Both the position numbers and the translations under genes were made by a program. From Edaphochlamys debaryana (Eukaryota; Chlorophyta; Chlorophyceae; Chlamydomonadales): a stretch of 64,000 nt of DNA. Positions 3,801-57,200 of the stretch are shown here, in pieces. How positions within the stretch are numbered: the stretch's first letter is position 1; the number at the start of each line of letters is the position of its first letter. The DNA is taken from assembly GCA_016858145.1 (NCBI GenBank), contig JAEHOE010000070.1, positions 248,001-312,000 on the forward strand, read 5' to 3'. The notes under the pieces were generated by a model. It ran no database searches. It saw nothing but the letters and a program-made list of their open reading frames with translations, and was not told the origin of the DNA.

Positions 3801-6800
3801 AACGCCCAGTAACTCCGCGTCCCGGGGCGTGCACCGCCGCGCCTCGGCCCACGCAAACCTGGGCGCAGCGCCTGGGCCGAGGTGTACGGACGCCATGGAA
3901 TCCGCAACAGCAGCTGGGTCGGAAGATCCCGCTTCTGCTGCCGTCAGGGATAGAGCGCCGGCCAGGGCCCTGCTCGGGGCGCGCAGGACGTCGCTCGAGC
4001 TGCGGTGGGAGGAGCACGTCGAACCGAAACCTGGGCGGGGTGAGGCGGCGCCCGCCGCGCGGTGCGATGGCCATCCCGAACCGCGAACACGGGTTGACGT
4101 CGGTGGCGGCACGGCTTGGCCCGCCGACGCCTCCGCCGAGGCGGGCATGGCATCGTCCTCCACGGCGCCCGCTACTGCTACTGCTGACTCGGCACCTGCT
4201 GCTGGTACGGCAGATGCGCCAGCAGAGCATCAGCTCGCCGCTCGGAGTGTCAGCTCACCGCAGACGTCCGTCAACCCGGACTCGGAGGAGGGGGCCAACA
4301 CGGACAAGCTCAGGCCGCTACGGTCTGAGGTCATTGCCCTGCGCTTGGCGTCGCTCCGTGCGCCCTCGCAGCCGCGCGGTATCCCCGGCCAGGGCCCGCA
4401 CCCGTCCTGGGTGGGAGGTTACGGCGGCTTGGCATGTGCCCAGCCGAGCCCGCACACGGCTACGTTTGCGCACGGAGAGCACCAGAAGCAGCCACTACTT
4501 CCATCTCCGCTGGACGCTTCCGGCGACCGAGAACTCCCCTCGTCGGTGACCTCGCCCTACGGTTCGCCCCATTCGACCGCGTTCAGCCTCCCTCGCGGCG
4601 CACCCGGCCTGCGTTGCGCTTCGCTGCCCTCCGTGCTCGGCGTCCTACCTCGATCCACCCTCGCCGCCGCGGCCCAAGCCGGCGCCACGCCAGCCCATCC
4701 CGCCCCCGGCCACGTGGACCTCTACCGTGCGACGAGCGTCAACACACGACAGCGCAGCTTCCGTTGCTGCCCGCCGGCGGCAGGCACCTCTCCTCGGACC
4801 GCAGGATCGGGCACCAGCGGCGCCCAAACCGTGACCGGCACTGGCACTGTGACCCCAGACCTGAGCACCAGCATCAAGGCCGGTCTGTGCTCCAACGCCG
4901 GCGCTCGTAGCCAGCCGCAAGGCCCCGGCGGAGCAGCCTGCTCCTCACGCGTGCTCGCCTTCGCTAGCTCGCTCAAGGGCGCACCCCGGCGGCGCGCCAG
5001 CGGCTCCGTCGGTGACTCGACCAGGGCCCCCCGAGCGCTGCTCATGCGCGGAGGCGGCCCCGGCTCCGCGGCCCCAACCAACACCCGCACAGCCCCTACC
5101 AGCGTCGTCGGCAGCCCGGTGTCTGGTGTCGACGTATCTGTGCACGGCCCCGCCCGCCCCCTGCACGTGGGCGTGGCTGCGATCGCGGGCAGCAACGCCT
5201 TGCAGAGTGCAGCGGCAAACGTGGACGACGGCGACGGCAACGAGTCCGTCACAGTCATCAGCCTGCGCCGCTCAATCATGGGCTCTCCATCCTCCCAGAC
5301 CGACCTGGGCAGCTGCCCGCCGCCTGCCTTGGCGGCAGGCGAGGCCAGGGGCGATGCGGGGCTCATGGCTGTGGGGGCGGGAGTCTTCGCCGCCACGCTT
5401 CTCGACGCAAGTCACCACAGCGTGGCGAGTCTTGCGCCCAGCACCCTCACGTCGGTCGTAGCCGACAGCACCGTCCTGAACGTTACGGCCTCGCGCAAGG
5501 GCACGGGCGGAGAGGTGGGCAGCCAGGGCGTCAGCGGCATGCTGAGGAACCTGCGGCTCAACCTCACCCTCAGCGGCAGCGACAGCGCGGCGGCGCGCAC
5601 AGAGGATCGATATGCTACTGCGCGGCGCACCAGCGGGGCGCGCACACCCGGTAAGCAAGGCGAGAGAGCAGGGTACACGTGGCTGCTGCCGCTCAGCGTG
5701 CACCTAGGGTTCTGTGCTGCTTTCCTTAGCCGTTGCAGCGCGTTTTGACGACGCTCTGCCTCACTGACTACGCTCTGCCACCCAGGGCTGTCCTCCTTCA
5801 CGATTCCGCGGTTGTACGGCAGCGCTGCCGACGACGGCGGCACCAGCCACTCTGGCCTGCCCTCTGGCCTGATGTCCTCGTCAGCAACGCCGAATGCGGG
5901 CGGCACCACGTCCGTCATCGAGGAGGAGACCGAGGAGGCACACCGGAGCCAGGGGTCCCGGTCGGGGACGCAGGAGCAAGGACCGGAGTCAACAGCGGGA
6001 AGGCACCAGCAGAGCGCAGCGGAGGTGGAGCCTGTGGTTAGCACGGTCCAGGTCACTGGAGGGGGCGAGGACGGGGCGGCGCCCCAAGCGCCAGCTCCAG
6101 AGTTCGAGGCGTGTGCAGCGGGCCTGGCGTGGCACGAGGTGCGCGCGAGTGCGGTGGAGGACCCCGGCAGCGGCGCTCGGTACCTTGTGGTGGTGCAGAA
6201 GGACGTGACGGCCAAGGTGGAGGCGGAGAGGCACATCGCGCAGGTGGGGGCGTGTTGTGGGGCGAAGGGCGCAGGCGCGTGGCGGGCTCGGGTCTGTGCG
6301 CTGCTGCCGAGGTGCCCCTTACGTGAGGCATGGGCACTACACTGCAGGTGTCGGAGGCTGAGCACCGGCTGCTGGAGCAGATCTTCCCTCGCCACGTGCT
6401 CGCGTACATGACGGAGGAAGCCTTCAGCCCCGCGCAGCCCGAGCCGCCCGCCCCTCAGCCCACCTCAGCCGAGTTGGGTCCCATTGCTGCCGCTGCCTCT
6501 CCCGGGGCCTCTGCCACCGCAGCAGCGCACTCATTGCCCTCCCCGGCTACCGCCCACCTCACCTGGCGGCCCTACGTCCGGGACTGTACGGAGCTCGCCA
6601 CGTGGCACCCGGAGGTGGGCCTGGGGCTTGGAACGTGTGGCCACCCTCTTGTATAGCGGCTGTGATCTACCCGTACTCAGTAAGCCGAGTCCCACTGCCC
6701 GTTCGACTGCAGGTGACAGTGCTCTTCGCTGACATCCAAGGTGGGTGTTGGGACGGAGGCGGCAACGCAAAGCTCTGCTTTTTTTGCAATAGCTGGGGAT

Positions 6801-7727
6801 TCTTGTCCACACCCTAGTGCGTGACCTCGAGCCCCTGCTCCCTGCCCCCTCAGGCTTCACGCCCATGTGCAAGCAGCTGCCCCCGACTGTGGTGATGCAG
6901 TTCCTCAACGACCTCTTTGTGCGCTTCGACGCAATGCTCGATGCGTACGGCGTGTACAAGGTGGGCAGGTGCTGAGAACCCCAGGACTGACACCTCAAGG
7001 CCGGTTATCCGCATCTGACGTTCTGCGCCCTGGCTTTCAGGTGGAGACCATCGGCGACTGCTACGTGGTGGCTGGCGGGCTGATCACCGAGGACGCCGAC
7101 GGCATGGCAGCTGTCCAGGAGGCGGGGGCGGACCCACAGCAGGCGGACCGGGTGTTTGCCTTTGCGCGGGTGAGCTGGGGCAGCGCAGGGGGTCATCGGC
7201 AAGGCCTCGGGTTAGGCCCGTGACTAGACTGAACCCCAAAGCAATTCGAGCGAACCAGACTCCCCGACCCCTCTGCAGGCCATGCTCCGCTCTGCCAGCT
7301 GTGTGCGGATGCCCACCACGGGAGAGGCCGTCAAGATCCGCGTGGGCATCCACTCCGGCCCCGTGGTCAGCGGGGTTGTGGGCACCCGCATGCCCCGCTT
7401 CTGCCTTTTCGGCGACACCATCAACACCGCCAGCCGCATGGAGAGCACCTCCAAGCCCGGCTGCGTGCACGTCAGCAGCGACACGGTGAGTGGCTTTGCG
7501 TCCCTTGCAAACCCCAGGCCTTTCCGTTTGCGTCCCCCATATCCTGATCTTTCCCTCGATCCCCACCGCAGTACGCTCTGCTGTCTGCCAGGGATGCCGG
7601 CTGGGCGCCCACGGGGGGCCTCGAGGTCAAGGGCAAGGGACACATGGAAACGTACCTGTGGGGGCCTTCGGACGGCGCAACACTCGCAATCGCCGAGTCC
7701 GTGATCGCTCGGCGAGGAGGCCTGTGA
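867..7727 (+). CDS. PAS-domain guanylate cyclase 1 (class III nucleotide cyclase)
   Basis: Predicted to make cGMP from GTP. Exons: 867-1887, 2012-3429, 3619-5650, 5786-6243, 6348-6614, 6713-6740, 6854-6960, 7041-7169, 7279-7485, 7572-7727; all phases agree and give about 1940 aa. A PAS N-terminal half lies near residues 246-330 and its PAC-like half (WHEVRAS...[12 protein letters not shown]) near 1600-1643; about 1250 Ser/Ala/Gly/Pro-rich residues separate them. The linker [16 protein letters not shown] typical of this algal family follows. The catalytic domain (1733 on) has metal-binding Asp1739 (LFADIQGFT) and Asp1783 (VETIGD), guanine-selecting Glu1779 and Cys1862 (PRFCLFGD), and Asn1869/Arg1873 (NTASR). 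These residues favour guanylate over adenylate cyclase. No TM segment was seen. The start at 867 is the first ATG in frame with the N-terminal similarity to the second cyclase and remains uncertain. Confidence 0.85.
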
Positions 7728-37090: not shown

Positions 37091-37098
37091 GCATATCC
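37091..37098. promoter_or_regulatory. distal GNATATNC (P1BS-type) site
   Basis: GCATATCC matches the P1BS consensus bound by PHR1/PSR1-type MYB regulators of phosphate starvation. It lies 580 bp upstream of the SPX gene ATG. Binding is inferred from the match and gene context only. Confidence 0.35.
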
Positions 37099-37583: not shown

Positions 37584-37591
37584 GCATATGC
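37584..37591. promoter_or_regulatory. proximal GNATATNC (P1BS-type) site
   Basis: GCATATGC, a perfect palindrome fitting the PHR1/PSR1 consensus, 87 bp before the ATG of the SPX-domain gene. SPX genes of plants and algae are typical PSR1/PHR1 targets, which makes a functional site plausible. It may sit in the promoter or in the 5' UTR. Confidence 0.5.
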
Positions 37592-37677: not shown

Positions 37678-40600
37678 ATGAAGTTCGCCAAGAGGCTTGT
37701 CGCGGAGGCAGGGCGGAAGGGGTCATGGGCAGAGGCTTACTTCGACTACCGCGCGGCAAAGCGAGCCATTAAAGAGGACTTGCTCGCAGGAGGTGCGTGG
37801 TGGGCCGGAAGGGACCTTGCGGGGATCAGTCGGTCGCGCAATTCCTGCGCGGGGGGCCTGTACAGGGCGGCGAGGTTCTCGGCGGCATATTATGCTTCAG
37901 CCATGAGGACCATGGGCACGGCAAGCAGAGAGAGCTCTCTGCGCGGGTGTGGCCTGGCACGCTCCCCGCGCCCCAGCCCGGGGGACCCGGGTGCCAGGGT
38001 CAGCCTGCGCTACTTGCCTGACGGCTTGACTGGCTTTGCGCGTTTGGGGTGCTTTCCGCGCAGACACGAATGGCTCCAGCTTTCAGAACCTCCTGGAGGC
38101 GGAGCTCCGCAAGGTGTCCCAGTTCTACTCCCAGCGGGCCGACGCGGCAGAGGTGCGCTCTCCCGCCCTTCACCCCAAACCCCCCACCGGCACCTGCATC
38201 CGCTCCTGGCTGTGGCTACGCGGCTGCGCACGGGGTGTGCGCTCCCCACGCCCACGCCCATGTCCCTCCCATCCCATCCGCTCCTGACGCTTTCCCTCCC
38301 CCCCCCCACCGTCGCGTCCCAGACCACGCTCCGCACGCTCCACGCCAGCACGCGGGCGAGCACGGTCGCGGAGCTCACGGCGTTGCGGGCGGAGATCCAG
38401 GAGCTGATTAAATTTGTGGCCCTCAACTACCTGGCGGTTAGTCATGGCGGTTGGTTCCAGCCAGGGGCGGTTTCCTGCGAATATCGGATCCTCGGGGCAT
38501 GATGCCACCCATGATCCCCCCACATTGGAAGCGCGCGAACGGCTCACGGGTCTCCTCTCACACACACACTCTCCCTTCCAACTGCCCTCCTCCCCCCTGC
38601 TGCAGGTGGTTAAAGCCATTAAGAAGCGCAACCGGCACCTGCGCGAGCGCTTCGGCCCCTCGGCCAGCATGGGCCTGCAGGCGCTGGACATGCTGGGCGG
38701 GGAGGTGTTCTTCACCTCGCCCCGCCTGGCCACCCTGGCCACTCAGGTGGGGGCTGGGCCGTGCTGGGCTGGTGGGCATCTGCCGGGCCTTACCGTGTGT
38801 GATGGCAGTCCATGCCTGTGGGCGTGGTGGGGGTCCCATTTACTAGCAGCTGCTTAGGTGAGGAATTCCACTCGTGCCAACACGCGCTGCCCCTTCCTCC
38901 TTTGGCGCCCCGCAGGCGGACGTGCTCGTGTCGGGCCTGGCCTCCACCTCGCAGCCCGACAACGTGCTCGAGGAGTACCAGGTGCGTTGAGGGCGATGGC
39001 TCACTGAGCACGGAGGCACATGTGCTGCCAACAGGCTGTGTGCAGGGGAGAAATACACACTCACCTGTCCGATGTGGTGCTAGCGTGTCGCTGACGTCCG
39101 CCCTGTGCCCCCTCCCTTCATCCCTTGCTTTCTTTCTCTTTCCCGGCAGTGCCCCATCTGCCTGGACACGCTCCATAACCCCGTGGTCCTCACCTGCGCG
39201 CATCGCTTCTGCTGGGGCTGCCTGGTGGCCCACGTGACGGCGACCAAGCAGCCCTCGCCCTCGCCAGGACAGGGCGGCGCCGAGAAGGGTGAGCGCGCCG
39301 GGGGTTTAACCCTGCCGCAGCCCGCGTTCCTCACTCTCCAGGCACCGCTTCCCCGCCAGCCCTCTTTCCAACCCTTGTTCATGCATGGGCCCTGCTGTGC
39401 TCCTGACCGCTCCGAACCTCTACTTTCCAACTTCCCAATTTTCCCAATTTCCTTGCAGGCGAGTCGTCGGTATGTCCGTCCTCGGCCAGCTCCCTGCAGC
39501 TCCTAGAGCGCATCGCGGCGGCGGAGGACCCCTCCGAGGCGCTGCAGCGGTTCTACAACTGCCCCGTGTGCCGCAAGCCGCAGCTGCTGGACGTCGACTC
39601 CCTGTCCGTGGACCCCTTCCTCTCGTCCTTCATCGAGTCGCTCAAGGTCCTATCCGTCTCCACCTCGGCCACCACAACCACCACCGTCCCGCCCTCGGTC
39701 AGCACCATCGCGGCCGCCGCCGCCGCGAGCCTCTCGGCCGTCGCTGCCGCCGCCGCCGCCGCCGGGACGTGCGCGCACGCCCACGCCCACACGTGCCAGG
39801 CCCACGGGTCCGCACGCGTGGAGCTCGTCCCCGCCGTTGCAGAAAAGCCGCACCCGAGCCCATGCGCCGGCTGTGCGGCCGACCCGCTCTCGTCCTTCAA
39901 GGCGGCCACACAGGCGGTTCCGCCGGCGCAGCCCGCGTCCCGACCCACATGGGGCATCATCCCGCCCCAGAGCCCCGAGCACGCCGGGCGGCTGTGCGTA
40001 CTGCTCGACCTGGACGGTACACTCGTGTCTTCGTACACGCCCCGGCGGGCGCCTCGCCTGCCGCCGTACGTTCGTACGCACATGGTGGGCGTGGGCTCCA
40101 AGCTCAACCCCGCCGGCGTGTTCGTGGTGGAGCGGCCCGGGCTGCGCGAGTTTCTGGAGGAGCTGGCCAGCTTCGCAGAGGTCATCGTCTTCACCGCCGG
40201 TAAGACGCAACTCCGCACCGCCTCCGATACCTTGCTGCGCCGGCCCTGCCAACCCCTCAGCTCGCTCGCCCTGCCTCAATTCCTTCCGCTCCACCCCCTT
40301 CCGCCCCCCGCTAATCAGCTTCAAACACCCCCTTCCGCGCCCCTTTCTTAGGCCTGGAGGACTACGCAAAGCCCATCGTGGAGGCCATCGACCCGCAGGG
40401 CCGCTTCTTCGCGCACGCCATCTACCGCGAGGGCACGCTGCGCACCGACTTCTACCAGTGCGTCAAAGACCTGTCGCGCCTCAACCGATCGCTGCCCCGC
40501 GCCGTGCTGGTGGACGACACGCCGCTCGCCTTCCTGCACCAGCCCGACAACGGCGTGCCCGTGCTGGGCTTCCGCGGCGACCCCGACGACCGCCTGCTCA

Positions 40601-42565
40601 ATGAGGCCGTGCTGCCGCTGCTGCAGGTGCGGACCGAGCGTTGTAGGCTCTAGGCAATAACGGACTCTTTGGCAGAATTATTTGCTAGGCCTGGAATGAG
40701 CGAGTGAACTGCTAGAATTTGGGGTTTGGGGGATTTTTGCGGTTTTCCTGTCGCTTCACCGCTCTCCGTGCGTGACCGTGTGCCGCTCCTCCACCGCCTG
40801 CGCAGGTGCTGTCCAAGGAGGCGGACGTGCGGCCGGTGCTGCAGCGGCGCTTCGACATGGCCACCTGGTTCCGCCGCAACTCGCTGCCCATCGACGCCAT
40901 CGTGCGCGCCGCCGCCGAGGCCTGCCGCCGCGAGCAGGAGCACCACCTGGGCCCCCTGCTGGCGGGCTTCGGCTCCCACAGCGCAAGCGCCTCGCCGCGC
41001 GAGCCGGGCTCGGGGGCGTGCTCGTCCGGGCCGTCGTCGTCGGATTCGGGCGCGGTGATGGGCGATGCGGCCTCGGCGGCGCCCGTGGAGGCGGCCGTCA
41101 GGTACAGCTTCAACACGCCCCGCGCGGCCTCGCCCAGCAAGCGCTTCCTGCTGCTAAGCGACTTCGACCGCACGCTCACAGGTGTGCAATCCTGCCATTT
41201 TTCCTGCTTTGCCTCGGTTTTTCCTTCATTTGAGGCGTGCGTGTGCGCCCCAGCATGCCGCCAGCGCCTGTCTCAAAGATAGAATCAATGGGCTGACGCT
41301 GCTTTCTGTCCATCGCGTGCTCCCTGTTGTGCAGATATCGATGTGGGCGAGGCGGTGGCGGAGCAGTTGGCGCCCGAGCTGCTGCCCATGCTGGTGGGCC
41401 TGGACCCCAAGTCCTCCTTCATCCCCATCACCAACACCATCCTGTCCGAGATGCAGCGCCGCGGCGTGTCGCGCGACGCGCTGCTAACCACGCTCCAGCA
41501 GCTGGGCGCCGAGATGCCGCTCGCGTCGACGGAGCTGCTGCGCATGATGCACGGCGCCGGCATCGACGTCAAGATCCTGTCGGACGCCAACTCCGTTTTC
41601 ATCTCGCACATGCTCGCCGGCGCCAAGGTGCAGGGCTACGTGACCAGCCTCCTCACCAACCCAGGTTGGTGCGGAGACACTATGGCTCGTCGGGCTGCAA
41701 CTTCAATACCTAAGTCGCTTCTCCTCGTTACTGTGTGGCTTGAAGCCATTGTGACTTGACAGACACGTTCTTGGTTTGGCGCCCCACCGCAGGCATTTTC
41801 GAGCGTGTTTCGGACGACGCCGCGCCAGCGGCCGGTGGCGCCTCGGCGCTCCAGCGCCTGGCGGGGCACCGGCTGGTGGTCAAGCCCCTGTTCAACCCCG
41901 CCGACCCCACCGTTGTGCTTCCATCCGCCGCCGCCGCTGCCACGGGCTGCGCGCAGGCCGGCCCCGCGTCTGCGTGCGGGCACGGCTGCGGGCGCTGCCC
42001 GGGCAACCTGTGCAAGGGCCTCGAGGTGCAGCGCATCAAGCACGCCAACACGTACGCCCACGTGGTGTACTGCGGCGACGGCCACAACGACATCTGCGCC
42101 GCGCTCTCGCTCGGCCCCACGGACGTGAGTGGCTCCCCGCATCCGCTACCCCTGCCCCTGCCCTACTCCCGCCGCTGTTCACCGCCTCCGACGTAACTGT
42201 GTCCTCACGCGTCGTTACGCTCCTCATGTTGTCGACTGGATACCCCGCGGCGGCGGTGCCTGACGCTGTTGCGCCCCGGCCCGTGTGCCCCTCCTCAGGC
42301 GCTGCTGGCGCGCGCGGGCCACCCCCTGGCGGCCTACATCGCTGAGGCGCAGGCACGGCCCGAGATGCCCCAGGTGCGTGCGTCTCTATGCGCGTACGGG
42401 TCAGGTGCATGCGGCTTTGGGCGTCAGGGTTGGTGGATTGCAGCAGTGGACACCACTGACTTGTGGTCCCTGGTTCGTCTTCGCTCGCAGGTCGCTGCTC
42501 AGGTCTACGTGTGGTCCACGCACGAGGAGCTGCTGGCCGCTGTACGGCAGATTGTGGACGTGTAG
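37678..42565 (+). CDS. SPX-RING-FCP1/SCP phosphatase-PHOSPHO1-like phosphatase fusion protein
   Basis: Exons: 37678-37792, 38064-38152, 38323-38436, 38606-38746, 38916-38981, 39150-39288, 39459-40199, 40352-40626, 40806-41181, 41335-41664, 41793-42124, 42299-42373, 42491-42565; every junction keeps phase; 955 aa. SPX domain at 1-165: starts MKFAKRLVAEAG, with the basic helix Lys109, Lys112, Lys113 (VKAIKKRNRHL) expected to bind inositol pyrophosphates. C3HC4 RING: C176, C179, C191, H193, C196, C199, then C256, C259 after a long insert. FCP1/SCP-type HAD domain from about 400: Asp405-x-Asp407 (LDLDGTLV), Thr in FTAG, KDLSRL, VDDTP. PHOSPHO1-type HAD domain from about 675: Asp679-x-Asp681 (SDFDRTLT), SDANSVFI, the Cys-rich CGRCPGNLCKG, and GDGHNDICAA. 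SPX-RING is the NLA ubiquitin-ligase arrangement; the two added phosphatases would act on phosphoprotein and on phosphocholine/phosphoethanolamine, respectively, by family analogy. Exon 7 holds RING end plus FCP1 start and exon 9 holds FCP1 end plus PHOSPHO1 start. Confidence 0.9.
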
Positions 42566-44333: not shown

Positions 44334-47300
44334 TCACGCCAGCGGCCCGCCGCTGGCGCCCATCTGGTCATTGTACGGCGCACTGTCGTACATGCCCCCC
44401 GCGCCGCCGCCGTACGCCGCCTCGTAGCCGCCGCCCCCGGCCGCGCCGCCGCCGTAGTCGTGCCACATGCCCGCCTGCATTGCCATCTGGGCCTGCTGCT
44501 GCATCGGCTGCCCCGCGGCCCCACCCCCAGACACCAGCACTGAAAGCTTCTCGTCCAGCCGCTGCGCGTAGTCCTCGTTCCGCGTCAGCCGCTCGTCCAA
44601 GAGCGCGATCGTCTGAGTCAGCACGTCCAGCTGGCCGACCATGTGCTGCAGCGTGGCGGCCAGGGATTCGGGCAGATCCGCCAGATTCAGCGGCGGCGGC
44701 ACCTCGACCTCGTACTCATCCGCCAGGCGGCCCTGCCGAGCCGCCTCCGCCGCTGCCGCGGCGGCCGCCACCACTGAGCTAGAGCCCGCTGCAACCGGCT
44801 CGGGCGCGGCGCGTTGCGGCGGCACGCCGCGCACGGTGCGGCCGCCGGCCGCGCCGGCTCCGCCGCCGCTGGCGGCGGCCGCAGCGGCGCGGGCTGCCGG
44901 CGCGGCTGCCCCAGCTCCCGCTGCCCCGCTCGTGGGCTCAGCGCCTGCGCCCGGGCGCACGTGCGCGGACGGCGGGAAGGGCGGCACGCGGGAGGGGACC
45001 ATGGCGCCGGGCGCGCCCGCCCCTGCGGCCAGCTGGATGGCCGAGTGGCCCGGCCCCGTGGGCTCGCCGATGAGCGGCTCCGCCCTGGCCTGCTTGGAGA
45101 TGCCCACGCCCGTGTAGTCCTCCAGGAAGCGGTCGAAGTTGGTCTTCCACACCATGACCTGGCGGACCGGGCGGGGGGGGGGGGGGGGTACGGATGGGGT
45201 TGGGGCGGGGACACGAGGATGGGCGGTTGAGGGGGTTGAGGCGAGCAGTGGTGAAGAGAGAGCTGCGGTGCTTAGCATGCGAGCGTTCACTGCAGTGTGG
45301 CGGCCAGGTGGGCAGGCGCTAGGCAGGGAAAGGAGCGCGCCGGATCAGGGCGTACAAGCGGCGCAGGGGAGCCGGGACGGGTCGGTGGCGGCCTGCGGGC
45401 TGATATGTCCCCCCTTGGCCGCTGCCCGGCGGGACTCGCCTGCTCGTCGGCGCCGCAGGACGCAAAGTAGTCCCCTGCCGGGCTGAAGGCGGTGCCGTTG
45501 GTGGCGCCCTCGTGGCCGTGCAGCGTGTAGAGCAGCTGGCCCTCGCGCAGGTCCCACACCTGGGGGGAGGGAGGGCGTGGGAAGGGGGTAGGGGTTGGCG
45601 AGCATGCCTCCAGGCAGAGGTGCCGACCCCTGTACCTACACCTCCCCACCAGCCACCACGCACGGTTACGCTTACTGCGTTAGGCAAAGCGCAAGCCCAT
45701 CTCGTGCTTCTGAGCGTTGCCTGGATCATGAGGCTTGGCGCCAGGCTTTCACAAGCTCAAGCCTTGAGACGCCCCGTGTTCCCCGCTCCACACTCAGCCC
45801 CGCTCCCGGCCCTGCACCCAGAGCTACCCGTAGGGCCGTCTAGGCGGAAGCCCCCCTCCCCCGCCCGCACCTTGAGCGTGGTGTCGAGCGACGATGAGAG
45901 CATGAAGTTGCCGGTGGGGTGGAAGGAGAGGTGCGTGACGGGGCCGGTGTGGGCTCGGTAGTGCTGCAGCAGCACGTTGGAGCGCAGGTCCCACAGCTTG
46001 AGCGACATGTCGGTGGAGCCGGAGGCGATGCAGGTGCCGTCGGGGTGGAAGGCCACGGTGTTCACCAGGCCTGGGGGAGGAGAGGGGGGTTAGCCGGGGG
46101 GGTTAGCGGTTGGGTATGGGGCAGGGCAGGGCAGGAAGAATGCGGTGGCGCTGGGTGGTAGTGCGTGTCGGCGGCTGGAAGGATGTTTGGTGGGGTTGGT
46201 GAGCGCCGGCCACGTCAGGGCCAGAGAGGTGCAAGCCCACTGGCAGGGGCGCTGCTTGGAGCGAGGAAGCGGGAGCTCAGCTCAGCCGTGCTGCCAAGCG
46301 AGGCTAGCCCTCGCTCTCCTCCCCGGCCCCTCCCTGCCCCCCTCCTCACCAGCTGCGTCCTCAAAGGTGCGCACGGGCTTCTTCGAGTTGAGGTCCCAGA
46401 TGCGCACCGTGCGGTCGTCGCCGCCCGAGATGGCCAGGCGGCCGTCGGGCGAGATGGCGCAGGTGCGCACCCAGTTCTGGTGGCCGGCAAGCGTGAAGGC
46501 GAACTTCTGGGTCGCGACGCTCCAGATCTGGGGGCGGGGCAGGGTTTGAGGGGCGCGGAGGAGGGGAGCGGGGAATGAGGGGAGGGGTGCTGGGGGCGTG
46601 GGAGCGTGGCGGCGGCGCGTCAAGTTTGCAGCCGAACGAGGTACCGTACCGGTATGGTCCCTGCCGTGTGCACGGGCAGCATCAGCGCACCCTCGCCCAG
46701 CGCCTCTCACGCCTCTGCTCCACGCGCTGCTGATCACTGGCCAAGCAGCCCCTCAGCAACCCCCGCAGCCCAGCAAAGGCGCTGGTGCGTGCAGCCCGGC
46801 GGCCGCCCCCCCGCGCCCCACCCACCTTGACGGTCTTGTCGTCGGAGCAGGTAGCCAGCATGCGGCCGTCGGAGGAGAAGTTGACGCAGCGCACGGTGCC
46901 CGTGTGCGCCTTGAGGACCGTGGACTTGCCCTCGCTGGAAGGAAGTGGGCAGGGGTTGGAAGCGGGTGACCCACGGCTCCCACGGATGGCGGTGTACTGG
47001 GGCCCTTAATGCTTGCTACACTTGCTTCAAGGGTCGGGCAGGCTCCGACAGGGGGCAGCCTCCTGTAACTGAGGTGCGCCTTGGGCCACTCTACCCCGGT
47101 TCGTGGCGGTTGCGGGAGAGGCTGAGGCCTAGGGGCTGCTTATGCTGGTTTGCGCTGCTCGGGGTCAGGCGTCTGTAAGGCAGAGCAGCATTGCAGTCCC
47201 CCACTGAGCCCATGCGTTCCCCATAGAGCCGTTGCCTTGACCGCCAGTCCCCAGTCCCAGCGTTCCCAGGCACCCACACAGTGGGCTGCCACAGGCGGAC

Positions 47301-54200: not shown

Positions 54201-57200
54201 GGGCCACCGCCCAGGGCGTGGCGGGGGTCGTCGCGCAGCTGGACGCCGCCATGGCACAGCTCGCCGCACAGCAGCAGGCGCAGGCGCAGACCACGACGGC
54301 GGCGACGGGGGCAGTGCAGACGGCGCAGGCGCAGGGCGGCGGAGGCGGGGCTGGCGGAGGGGCAGCGAACGCGACCGTCGCGGCGGGCTCAGGCTCGGCG
54401 GAGGCTGGCGGCAAGGCCGGGGCTGCGGCTACGGAGGTGGGAGCAGCGGGCGCGAGCCCGAGCCCCGCCAAGGCGGCTGCTGGTGGCGGAGGCGGCGGAG
54501 GCGGAGGCGGCACGACCGCTCGGGACCGCGCTGCTGATCTGGCCATGGAGCTGGGCAAGGCGCTGGGGGCATACAGTGACGTGGCAGCACCCAACGCGAC
54601 CGTGGCAGGTAGGCGTGGGGAGGGGTGGGGTGAAAGGGGCATGGGCGGGGCAAGGTGAGCCGGCATGCCCGGGAGCGAGTGTGCGCAAGATGCAGTGTGG
54701 ATGTAGGGAGCTGCTCCCCACTGGCGCTTGGCACCGTTTTGGTGCTCTCACTTGCACACCAGCGCACGTCTGGGCCTTCCCCTCGCACCCAAGGCCATTG
54801 CCTCCGCACCCCTCCACCCCGCCCCGGCCTCCTCCCCCCACCCCCTCCCCTGCACCCCCAGGCAAGTCCCTGGCCCAGGTCCGCGCCACGGCGCTCTCCA
54901 CGCAGGCCGCCCTCAACCAGACCGCCACGGTGCTGGAGCGGGTCAGCACGGCGGTGGCGGCGGCCAAGAAGGGCGGCAAGCAGGCGGACGAGGTCAAGCG
55001 GGCGGCGGTGGCGGTGGGTGGGGGGGCGGGGAGGGGGAGGGGGGGCGGGGACGGGGAGGGGGGGCAGGGGAGGGGGACGGGGGGCAGGGGAGGGGGAGGG
55101 GGACGGGGGGCAGGGGAGGGGGAGGGGGGCCAGGGGCAAGGAGGGCGTGAGGGCGGGTCAGAGGTGGGCGAGACTGCACGGGGTGGTGTCGAAGGGAAGG
55201 GCAGGAGGACGAGGTGCGGTAACCTGTGCCACCGCCTCCGCCGCGTCCGCTTCCACAAACCAACCCCCTTCCCCTTCTCCCCCCCCCTGCCCCCTACCTC
55301 CCCCCCCAGGCCATGCAGCTGGCGCTCAACGCAACCTCCGCCTCCTCCCTGGCCATGCAGCTCACGGGGGAGGCGCTGCAGCGCTCGGCGGCCGAGGAGG
55401 CGTCCGAGCTGCTCAGCATGCTGGTACAGGTGGGGGAAAACGGGGTCGACACGCGGGGAGGGCACGTGGAAACCGCCCCCCAACCGCGATTACCGTACTA
55501 ACCGCCAGGTAGTTGAGCGCCACGATCTTGATCAGCTCCTGGATCTCCGCCCGCAACGCCGTGAGCTCCGCGACCGTGCTCGCCCGCGTGCTGGCGTGGA
55601 GCGTGCGGAGCGTGGTCTGGGACGCGACGTGGGGGGGAGGGAAAGCGTCAGGAGCGGATGGGGTGGGATGGACATGGGCGTGGGCGTGGGGAGCGCACAC
55701 CCCGTGCGCAGCCACGTCGCAAAAGCCAGGAGCGGAAGCAGGTGCCGGTGGGGGGTTGGGGTGAAGCCCAGGAGAGCGCACCTCTGCCGCGTCCGCCCGC
55801 TGGGAATAGAACTGGGACACCTTGCGGAGCTCCGCCTCCCTGGTTGCCCGGGGCCGGGGCCCTCCTCCGTTGCTGCTGTCGGCCCGCTGTGATCCCTCCC
55901 GCCCTCCACCCCGCTCCCCAGGTCTCCCACGAGCTGGAGAAGACCACCTCCAAGGTACCCAAGGTCAAGCGGGACACAGGCAACACCACAGCCACCGCCG
56001 CCACGTCAGCATCCACCGCCTCTTTGTCCACGTCAGCGGCATCGGGTACGGCATCCGGTACGGCAGCTGCTGGCGGCGATGCGGGCGCCGCCGCAGCTGC
56101 CGGCGCCGGCAAGGATAAGGCCGAGGGCGCCAAGGCAACTGGCGGGGCCGGCGGCGACGGCAAGTCGACGTCGACGACCGCGGCGGCGGCGGCCGGTGAC
56201 GGCAGGGACAAGGGCAAGGATGGCTCCGCCGCTGCCGCCGGCAGCGGCGCAGGCGACACGGCGGCGGCGGCGGCAGGCGAGATCAAGGCCGAGAAGCCGC
56301 CGCTGTCGGTAGCGGACAACGAGGAGCGTGCGGCGGCGGCGGCGGGCCAGCTTGAGGCAGTGATCAAGGATTTGAACACCAAGATCGCCGCCGCTGGCGG
56401 CGGCGCCGTCGCCACGGCCGCCGCCGACACCGCCACCGTCGCGGCCAAGGCGGCGGCGGTGGCTGCCGCCGCCGCTGCGGCCACCGCCGCCGCCGCCACC
56501 GGCGCCAGCGGCACCGTCACCCAGGGGGGCCTCGTGGTCGCCGGCGGCTCAACTGCCGCAACCACCTCGACGGGCAAGGACCCAACCACCTCAACCGTCA
56601 AGACCGGCGGCGCAACCGCCTCAACCGACGGCCACCACCACGCCACCGCCATCACGCTGCCCGCCAAGACCTCGACGGACGCAACCGTTGGCGCAACCAC
56701 CTCCTTAACCGTCAACGCAACCGCCGCCGCCGACGCGTCTGACACGCAGTTGGTCGGCGGCTCGCACAGCCTCAATGTGTCGGGCATTGCGGCGGCGCTG
56801 CAGGACGCCGTCGAGCTGACCAAGGTCAGTTGTCACTGCCTGCTGCGGATGGCTGCCCCCTGCTCTGCTGTCTCGCACTACTCTGATCTGATCTGACCCT
56901 GCCTGGCCCGACCGGACTGAGCGTGGAGCCGGCGTCTCCATGGGAGGCGCAGCACAGCAGCTGTCCTCACGCTCCTGAGCGCTCCTCCCCGCCCGTCGGC
57001 CCACAGGTGCAACAGACGCAGGCGCTCCACGAGATCGAGGAGTCCCTCACCAAGACCGACACCAAGGTGTGTGTGGGAGCACGTGACCCCGCCCTTGTGC
57101 GCCCTCAACCTGTCCGGGGCTCGTGGCGCTGCTCAGCTCCTGCACAGCTCCTTCCTCACCCTCCTTACCTTCCTCGCCGTCTCGATGCACTTGCACTCAA

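Follow-up and report, generated by a model that had tools for sequence, protein, structure and literature searches.

Can a single protein of a green alga read phosphate status, attach ubiquitin and remove phosphate groups? The question is raised by a gene of Edaphochlamys debaryana on contig JAEHOE010000070.1, positions 248,001 to 312,000 of which form the 64,000-nucleotide stretch of DNA analysed here (the window). A first-pass annotation had read this gene as a fusion of an SPX sensor, a RING E3 ligase, an FCP1/SCP phosphatase and a PHOSPHO1-like phosphatase. Eukaryotes gauge phosphate by means of SPX proteins, whose SPX domains are receptors of inositol pyrophosphates. In fission yeast the signal of the SPX-RING branch reaches transporters as well as transcription termination. 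A conserved fusion with an SCP-type phosphatase names a candidate partner activity and allows the relay of this signal to be tested within a single protein. We found that the fusion is a real single-chain protein, and the same order of modules occurs in many green algae.

Gene structure and domains

We rebuilt the 13-exon model from the sequence. Every intron is bounded by GT-AG, the phases agree, and the joined exons form a 2868-base frame with a single terminal stop that encodes 955 residues. In a protein search this product was a 100% match over its full length to HYH03_011810 of E. debaryana, which carries the public label "hypothetical protein" and has no assigned function. The borders between modules fall within exons 7 and 9. 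The exon count, the phases and the independence of the fusions from any guessed intron were thus as first annotated.

A Pfam search with the whole protein, a check suggested with the annotation, returned NIF (E = 2.7e-39), Put_Phosphatase (1.2e-30) and RING families (about 1e-7). SPX (PF03105) stayed below the cut-off with the whole protein (E = 0.0031) and was above it with the N-terminus alone. The predicted structure backs the SPX, FCP/NIF and PHOSPHO1-family domains, while the RING finger is supported by sequence only. The protein resembles the SPX-RING class in its N-terminal SPX domain with predicted inositol-pyrophosphate-binding Tyr and Lys residues and in the C3HC4 RING that follows, but it does not end at the RING, since NIF and PF06888 come after. 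For the FCP/SCP (NIF) class both the DxDx(T/V) nucleophile motif and the family fold are present. For the PHOSPHO1/PECP1 class the PF06888 profile, the HAD motifs and the Cys motif are present and Asp43 is not. The key residues, said to be intact in all four modules, are so at the catalytic and ligand sites, the Asp43 equivalent excepted. Inositol pyrophosphate binding, E3 activity and phosphatase activity are predicted from the respective families.

Table 1. Features of the fusion gene and its upstream region (window coordinates).
Feature	Position	Strand	Details	Evidence
Whole coding span	37678..42565	+	13 exons, 955 residues; NCBI HYH03_011810	splice borders, phases, open frame
Exons 1-7	37678-37792, 38064-38152, 38323-38436, 38606-38746, 38916-38981, 39150-39288, 39459-40199	+		
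Exons 8-13	40352-40626, 40806-41181, 41335-41664, 41793-42124, 42299-42373, 42491-42565	+		
SPX domain	37678..38951	+	residues 1-165, exons 1-5	sequence, predicted structure, site conservation
Predicted inositol-pyrophosphate-binding residues of SPX	37678..38951	+	K2, Y24, K28 and K109, K112, K113	site conservation
RING finger, C3HC4	38970..39586	+	residues 172-264, from late exon 5 through exon 6 into early exon 7	sequence
RING ligands	38970..39586	+	C176, C179, C191, H193, C196, C199, C256, C259, then R260	site conservation
SCP-type FCP/NIF phosphatase	39950..40850	+	residues 386-575, exons 7-9; D405, D407, T409, K507, D523, D524	
PHOSPHO1-family HAD domain	41136..42562	+	residues 671-955, exons 9-13	Pfam, alignment, predicted structure
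HAD sites	41136..42562	+	D679, D681, T683, S768, D769, Cys motif C861/C864/C869/K870, G890-D891, D895	
Gly690 replacing PHOSPHO1 Asp43	41346-41348	+		alignment
P1BS-type site GCATATCC (GNATATNC)	37091..37098	+	587 bases 5' of ATG	motif search
P1BS-type site GCATATGC	37584..37591	+	94 bases 5' of ATG	motif search

Conservation and age of the fusion

The comparison set comprised at least 99 distinct proteins from two protein searches (72 and 84 matches listed), and all row counts below hold among the matches listed. We scored 28 diagnostic sites in a joint alignment, accepting Lys/Arg at position 2 and Thr/Ser at 409 and 683. Letters at all 28 sites were available in 51 of 99 rows, 46 of which kept every site. 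Those of the 46 that are named by their source belong to 15 genera: Edaphochlamys, Chlamydomonas (incerta, schloesseri), Gonium, Volvox (africanus, reticuliferus), Astrephomene, Sanguina, Haematococcus, Raphidocelis, Dunaliella salina, Trebouxia, Elliptochloris, Apatococcus, Myrmecia, Micractinium and Tetraselmis chuii. Rather than being absent from all relatives, the architecture is found in Gonium, Volvox, Astrephomene, Chlamydomonas and beyond, in independent assemblies. Among the five complete rows that failed, P0014, P0016, P0017 and P0061 had lost a HAD site and P0136 differed at the SPX N-terminus. R260 was present in 84/84 rows having a complete RING.

Two sequences come from transcripts. 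P0040 (mmetsp, which we take to be a transcriptome project; Tetraselmis chuii) holds the four modules in order with all 28 sites, and P0061 (TRINITY transcript) has the same order. Since both are transcriptome-sourced, the module order is no artefact of genome annotation.

A HAD-domain tree was built from 21 chosen fused and 12 stand-alone rows; in it all 21 fused rows formed one clade (100/98) separate from the stand-alone rows, although our trees carry long-branch warnings. Volvocine rows grouped together; Tetraselmis and Pedinophyceae branched deep. From this we infer that the modules were joined once, ahead of the divergence of the core chlorophyte lineages, and were inherited vertically thereafter.

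Relation to known systems and literature

Like plant NLA/BAH1 and Schizosaccharomyces pombe Pqr1/Spx1, the protein has an N-terminal SPX with a YxxxK motif and a Lys cluster, then a C3HC4 RING. The Vtc4/Spx1 motif is YxxxKxxxK (PMC8749416); its version here is Y24xxxK28xxxK32, with K32 present in 41/69 rows. NLA and Pqr1 (470 residues; PMC8749416) stop after the RING, whereas the algal protein adds about 690 residues with two phosphatase domains, and its RING loop is longer and variable (17% mean identity). The chlorophyte SPX-RING protein thereby differs in make-up from land-plant NLA. Gde1 (SPX-ankyrin-glycerophosphodiesterase) and VTC4 (SPX-polyphosphate polymerase) likewise join SPX to a phosphorus-metabolising enzyme (PMC8749416), but they lack a RING and use another enzyme fold.

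In comparison to the small CTD (C-terminal domain of RNA polymerase II) phosphatases SCP1-3 of the FCP/SCP (NIF) family, the fusion has DLDGT where SCP1 has DLDET, an inserted loop (416-440), a position behind SPX-RING and a conserved extension after the domain (consensus RRFxMxxWFxR). We also aligned five positions to the residues that we take to form the Pro pocket of SCP1. Across the family, four of them carry mainly hydrophobic residues (414 F/Y, 430 V/I/L, 442 V/I, 470 L) and 428 is T/S. The C-terminal domain shares PF06888 and the motifs DxDxT, SDxN, CxxCxxNLCKG and GDGxND with PHOSPHO1 and Arabidopsis PECP1-PS2, from which the fused domains are set apart by their separate clade and the missing Asp43 equivalent.

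Our literature searches found no description of an SPX-RING-NIF-HAD architecture, in line with the first-pass annotation, to which no described protein adding two unrelated HAD phosphatases to SPX-RING was known. The passages on algal SPX fusions in a 2021 survey give none of the four-module kind, and state that the RING and MFS classes of SPX proteins arose gradually in later plants (PMC8717665). Section 7 of a 2026 review assigns an SPX-RING protein to Volvox carteri (PMC13153306); that section makes no mention of a phosphatase or other added domain, and a term search of the paper returned none. SPX-RING ligases are a known kind; their four-module form, along with its conservation and changed HAD site, is undescribed as far as these searches show.

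What the fusion may do

We favor, at a probability of about 0.5, an SPX-RING ligase that gained a C-terminal SCP protein phosphatase and a PHOSPHO1-family HAD domain and would act as a dual writer/eraser gated by inositol pyrophosphate. The SPX domain would bind inositol pyrophosphate, abundant under plentiful phosphate, and its bound state would gate the catalytic modules, the direction of gating being a guess. One adaptor would then attach ubiquitin to a client and remove phosphate from that client or from a partner, so that the phosphate-starvation response is adjusted. The likeliest clients, again a guess, would be those of two-domain SPX-RING proteins, that is phosphate transporters or the RNA polymerase II (Pol II)/3'-processing machinery, with the C-terminal HAD enzyme as an accessory small-molecule phosphatase. 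Such a fusion may let the sensing of phosphate act directly on how other molecules are marked and dephosphorylated. Against universality of this arrangement stand the models P0045, P0052, P0056, P0060, P0064, P0066 and P0137-P0139, in which a module is missing; in Chlorella the HAD part lies in the next model (P0137/P0085), which resembles a split gene.

Regulation would fit a role in phosphate starvation. PSR1 is the Chlamydomonas homologue of PHR1. The genome holds 6043 P1BS-type sites in 141.9 Mb, giving an expectation of 0.025 in 588 bases and a Poisson chance of 3e-4 for at least two, for a motif picked for its phosphate context after the gene had been seen. P1BS (GNATATNC) is bound by PHR1 (PMC5795055), and the two sites upstream of the ATG suggest that the gene probably belongs to the phosphate-starvation regulon.

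As to clients, fission yeast Spx1/Pqr1 requires both its inositol-pyrophosphate site and its RING (PMC8294586; PMC8749416). A tentative sub-case of the gated writer/eraser is that the RING ubiquitylates phosphate transporters, as NLA and Pqr1 both do (PMC8294586), and the SCP domain removes a blocking phosphorylation on transporter or ligase; the output would be uptake, not transcription. The intact SPX-RING module agrees with this, but the best-known SCP-fold enzymes, judged by PDB titles, act on the Pol II CTD. Spx1 has also been implicated in passing IP8 signals to 3' processing and termination, and its deletion reverses effects of Pol II CTD mutations (PMC8749416). It is conceivable, if unlikely, that inositol pyrophosphate at the SPX domain steers ubiquitylation and dephosphorylation of the CTD or of 3'-processing partners in one chain. 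This would join physically what fission-yeast genetics ties together through separate IP8, Spx1 and CTD, and the HAD domain may then be an enzyme acting on a further phosphate signal. A green-algal SPX-RING protein with a domain resembling CTD phosphatases suits this axis, but so would a client of the transporter or lipin type.

The first-pass annotation had proposed a phosphate-status regulator with a C-terminus that would scavenge the phosphate of phosphocholine and phosphoethanolamine. PF06888 membership, intact HAD motifs and the retained D769 agree with this, Arabidopsis PECP1/PS2 of the same family are induced by phosphate starvation and use these substrates (PMC6549246), and E. debaryana has phosphatidylcholine (PMC8047662). 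However, mutation of Asp43 in human PHOSPHO1 abolishes phosphocholine activity, Asp123 also being needed (PMC9360546), and in the algal protein these two residues correspond to Gly690 and Asp769. None of 76 rows has Asp at position 690 and 61 have Gly, P0072 being counted although it has no such domain. The Asp is found in 11/12 stand-alone relatives (exception P0115) and in none of the 21 fused rows of the tree, which points to a fold of the PHOSPHO1 family whose substrate site has changed. Just one further PF06888 gene was found in the genome (contig C107:264399-265610); it is stand-alone and has the canonical Asp43-type motif ENSDTW.

At least one HAD catalytic residue is lost in P0014, P0016, P0017, P0021, P0055, P0056, P0058, P0061 and P0063, among them Chlamydomonas eustigma (P0014) and the Antarctic Chlamydomonas sp. 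UWO 241 (P0017), in which the domain is possibly a pseudo-phosphatase. In the four complete rows whose HAD site is dead, identity to canonical rows does not change in SPX, NIF or the first part of the RING, while HAD identity drops from 55 to 46% and from 50 to 35%; the second RING part also drops, from 52 to 44%. Site loss confined to the HAD domain in these rows, together with its drop in identity, suggests an accessory HAD module and a core of SPX, RING and SCP. The lost Asp43, the separate canonical gene and the HAD residue losses leave headgroup scavenging without support, and we consider this scheme doubtful; what stands is the fusion with its intact SPX-RING-SCP sites. As a guess at its substrate, the C-terminal domain would act on a phosphomonoester other than phosphocholine.

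Slightly more doubtful still is a CTDNEP1-like role, in which the FCP/NIF domain would dephosphorylate a lipin-type enzyme and so match phospholipid synthesis to phosphate status. Weakest of all and very unlikely is a gene-model error joining two or three neighbouring genes, which the consecutive Chlorella variabilis models 137319 (SPX-RING-NIF) and 137320 (HAD), placed on contigs of equal length, and certain other models ending after NIF would suit, but which the within-exon borders, the shared order in 46 complete rows and the transcript sequences oppose.

Neighbouring sequence and other fusions

Two metagenome proteins (jgi) show other combinations. P0151 (558 residues) is another SPX-RING-enzyme fusion, with a complete protein kinase (Pkinase 1.2e-63, SPX 9e-8, RING 4e-8). 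P0072 (1121 residues) combines a RING with a glycerophosphodiester phosphodiesterase domain (GDPD 8e-32); ahead of these lies a stretch that by eye resembles the latter half of an SPX domain, with no Pfam SPX match at 0.01.

A segment of the SPX-coding part that takes in exon 2 sequence, intron 2 and exon 3 sequence (38095-38442, plus strand) recurs as an inverted copy 13 kb downstream (55497-55839, minus strand; 93.4% identical), and a 181-base probe found these two copies only in the genome. Further inverted repeats pair 6119-7665 with 22904-21347 (92%) and 1578-1899 with 27440-27113 (94%); their coding sequence appears nucleotide-cyclase-like and PAS-like by eye. Just downstream of the fusion gene, WD40-repeat exons, POC1-like by eye, lie in opposite orientation at about 45437-46545 on the minus strand.
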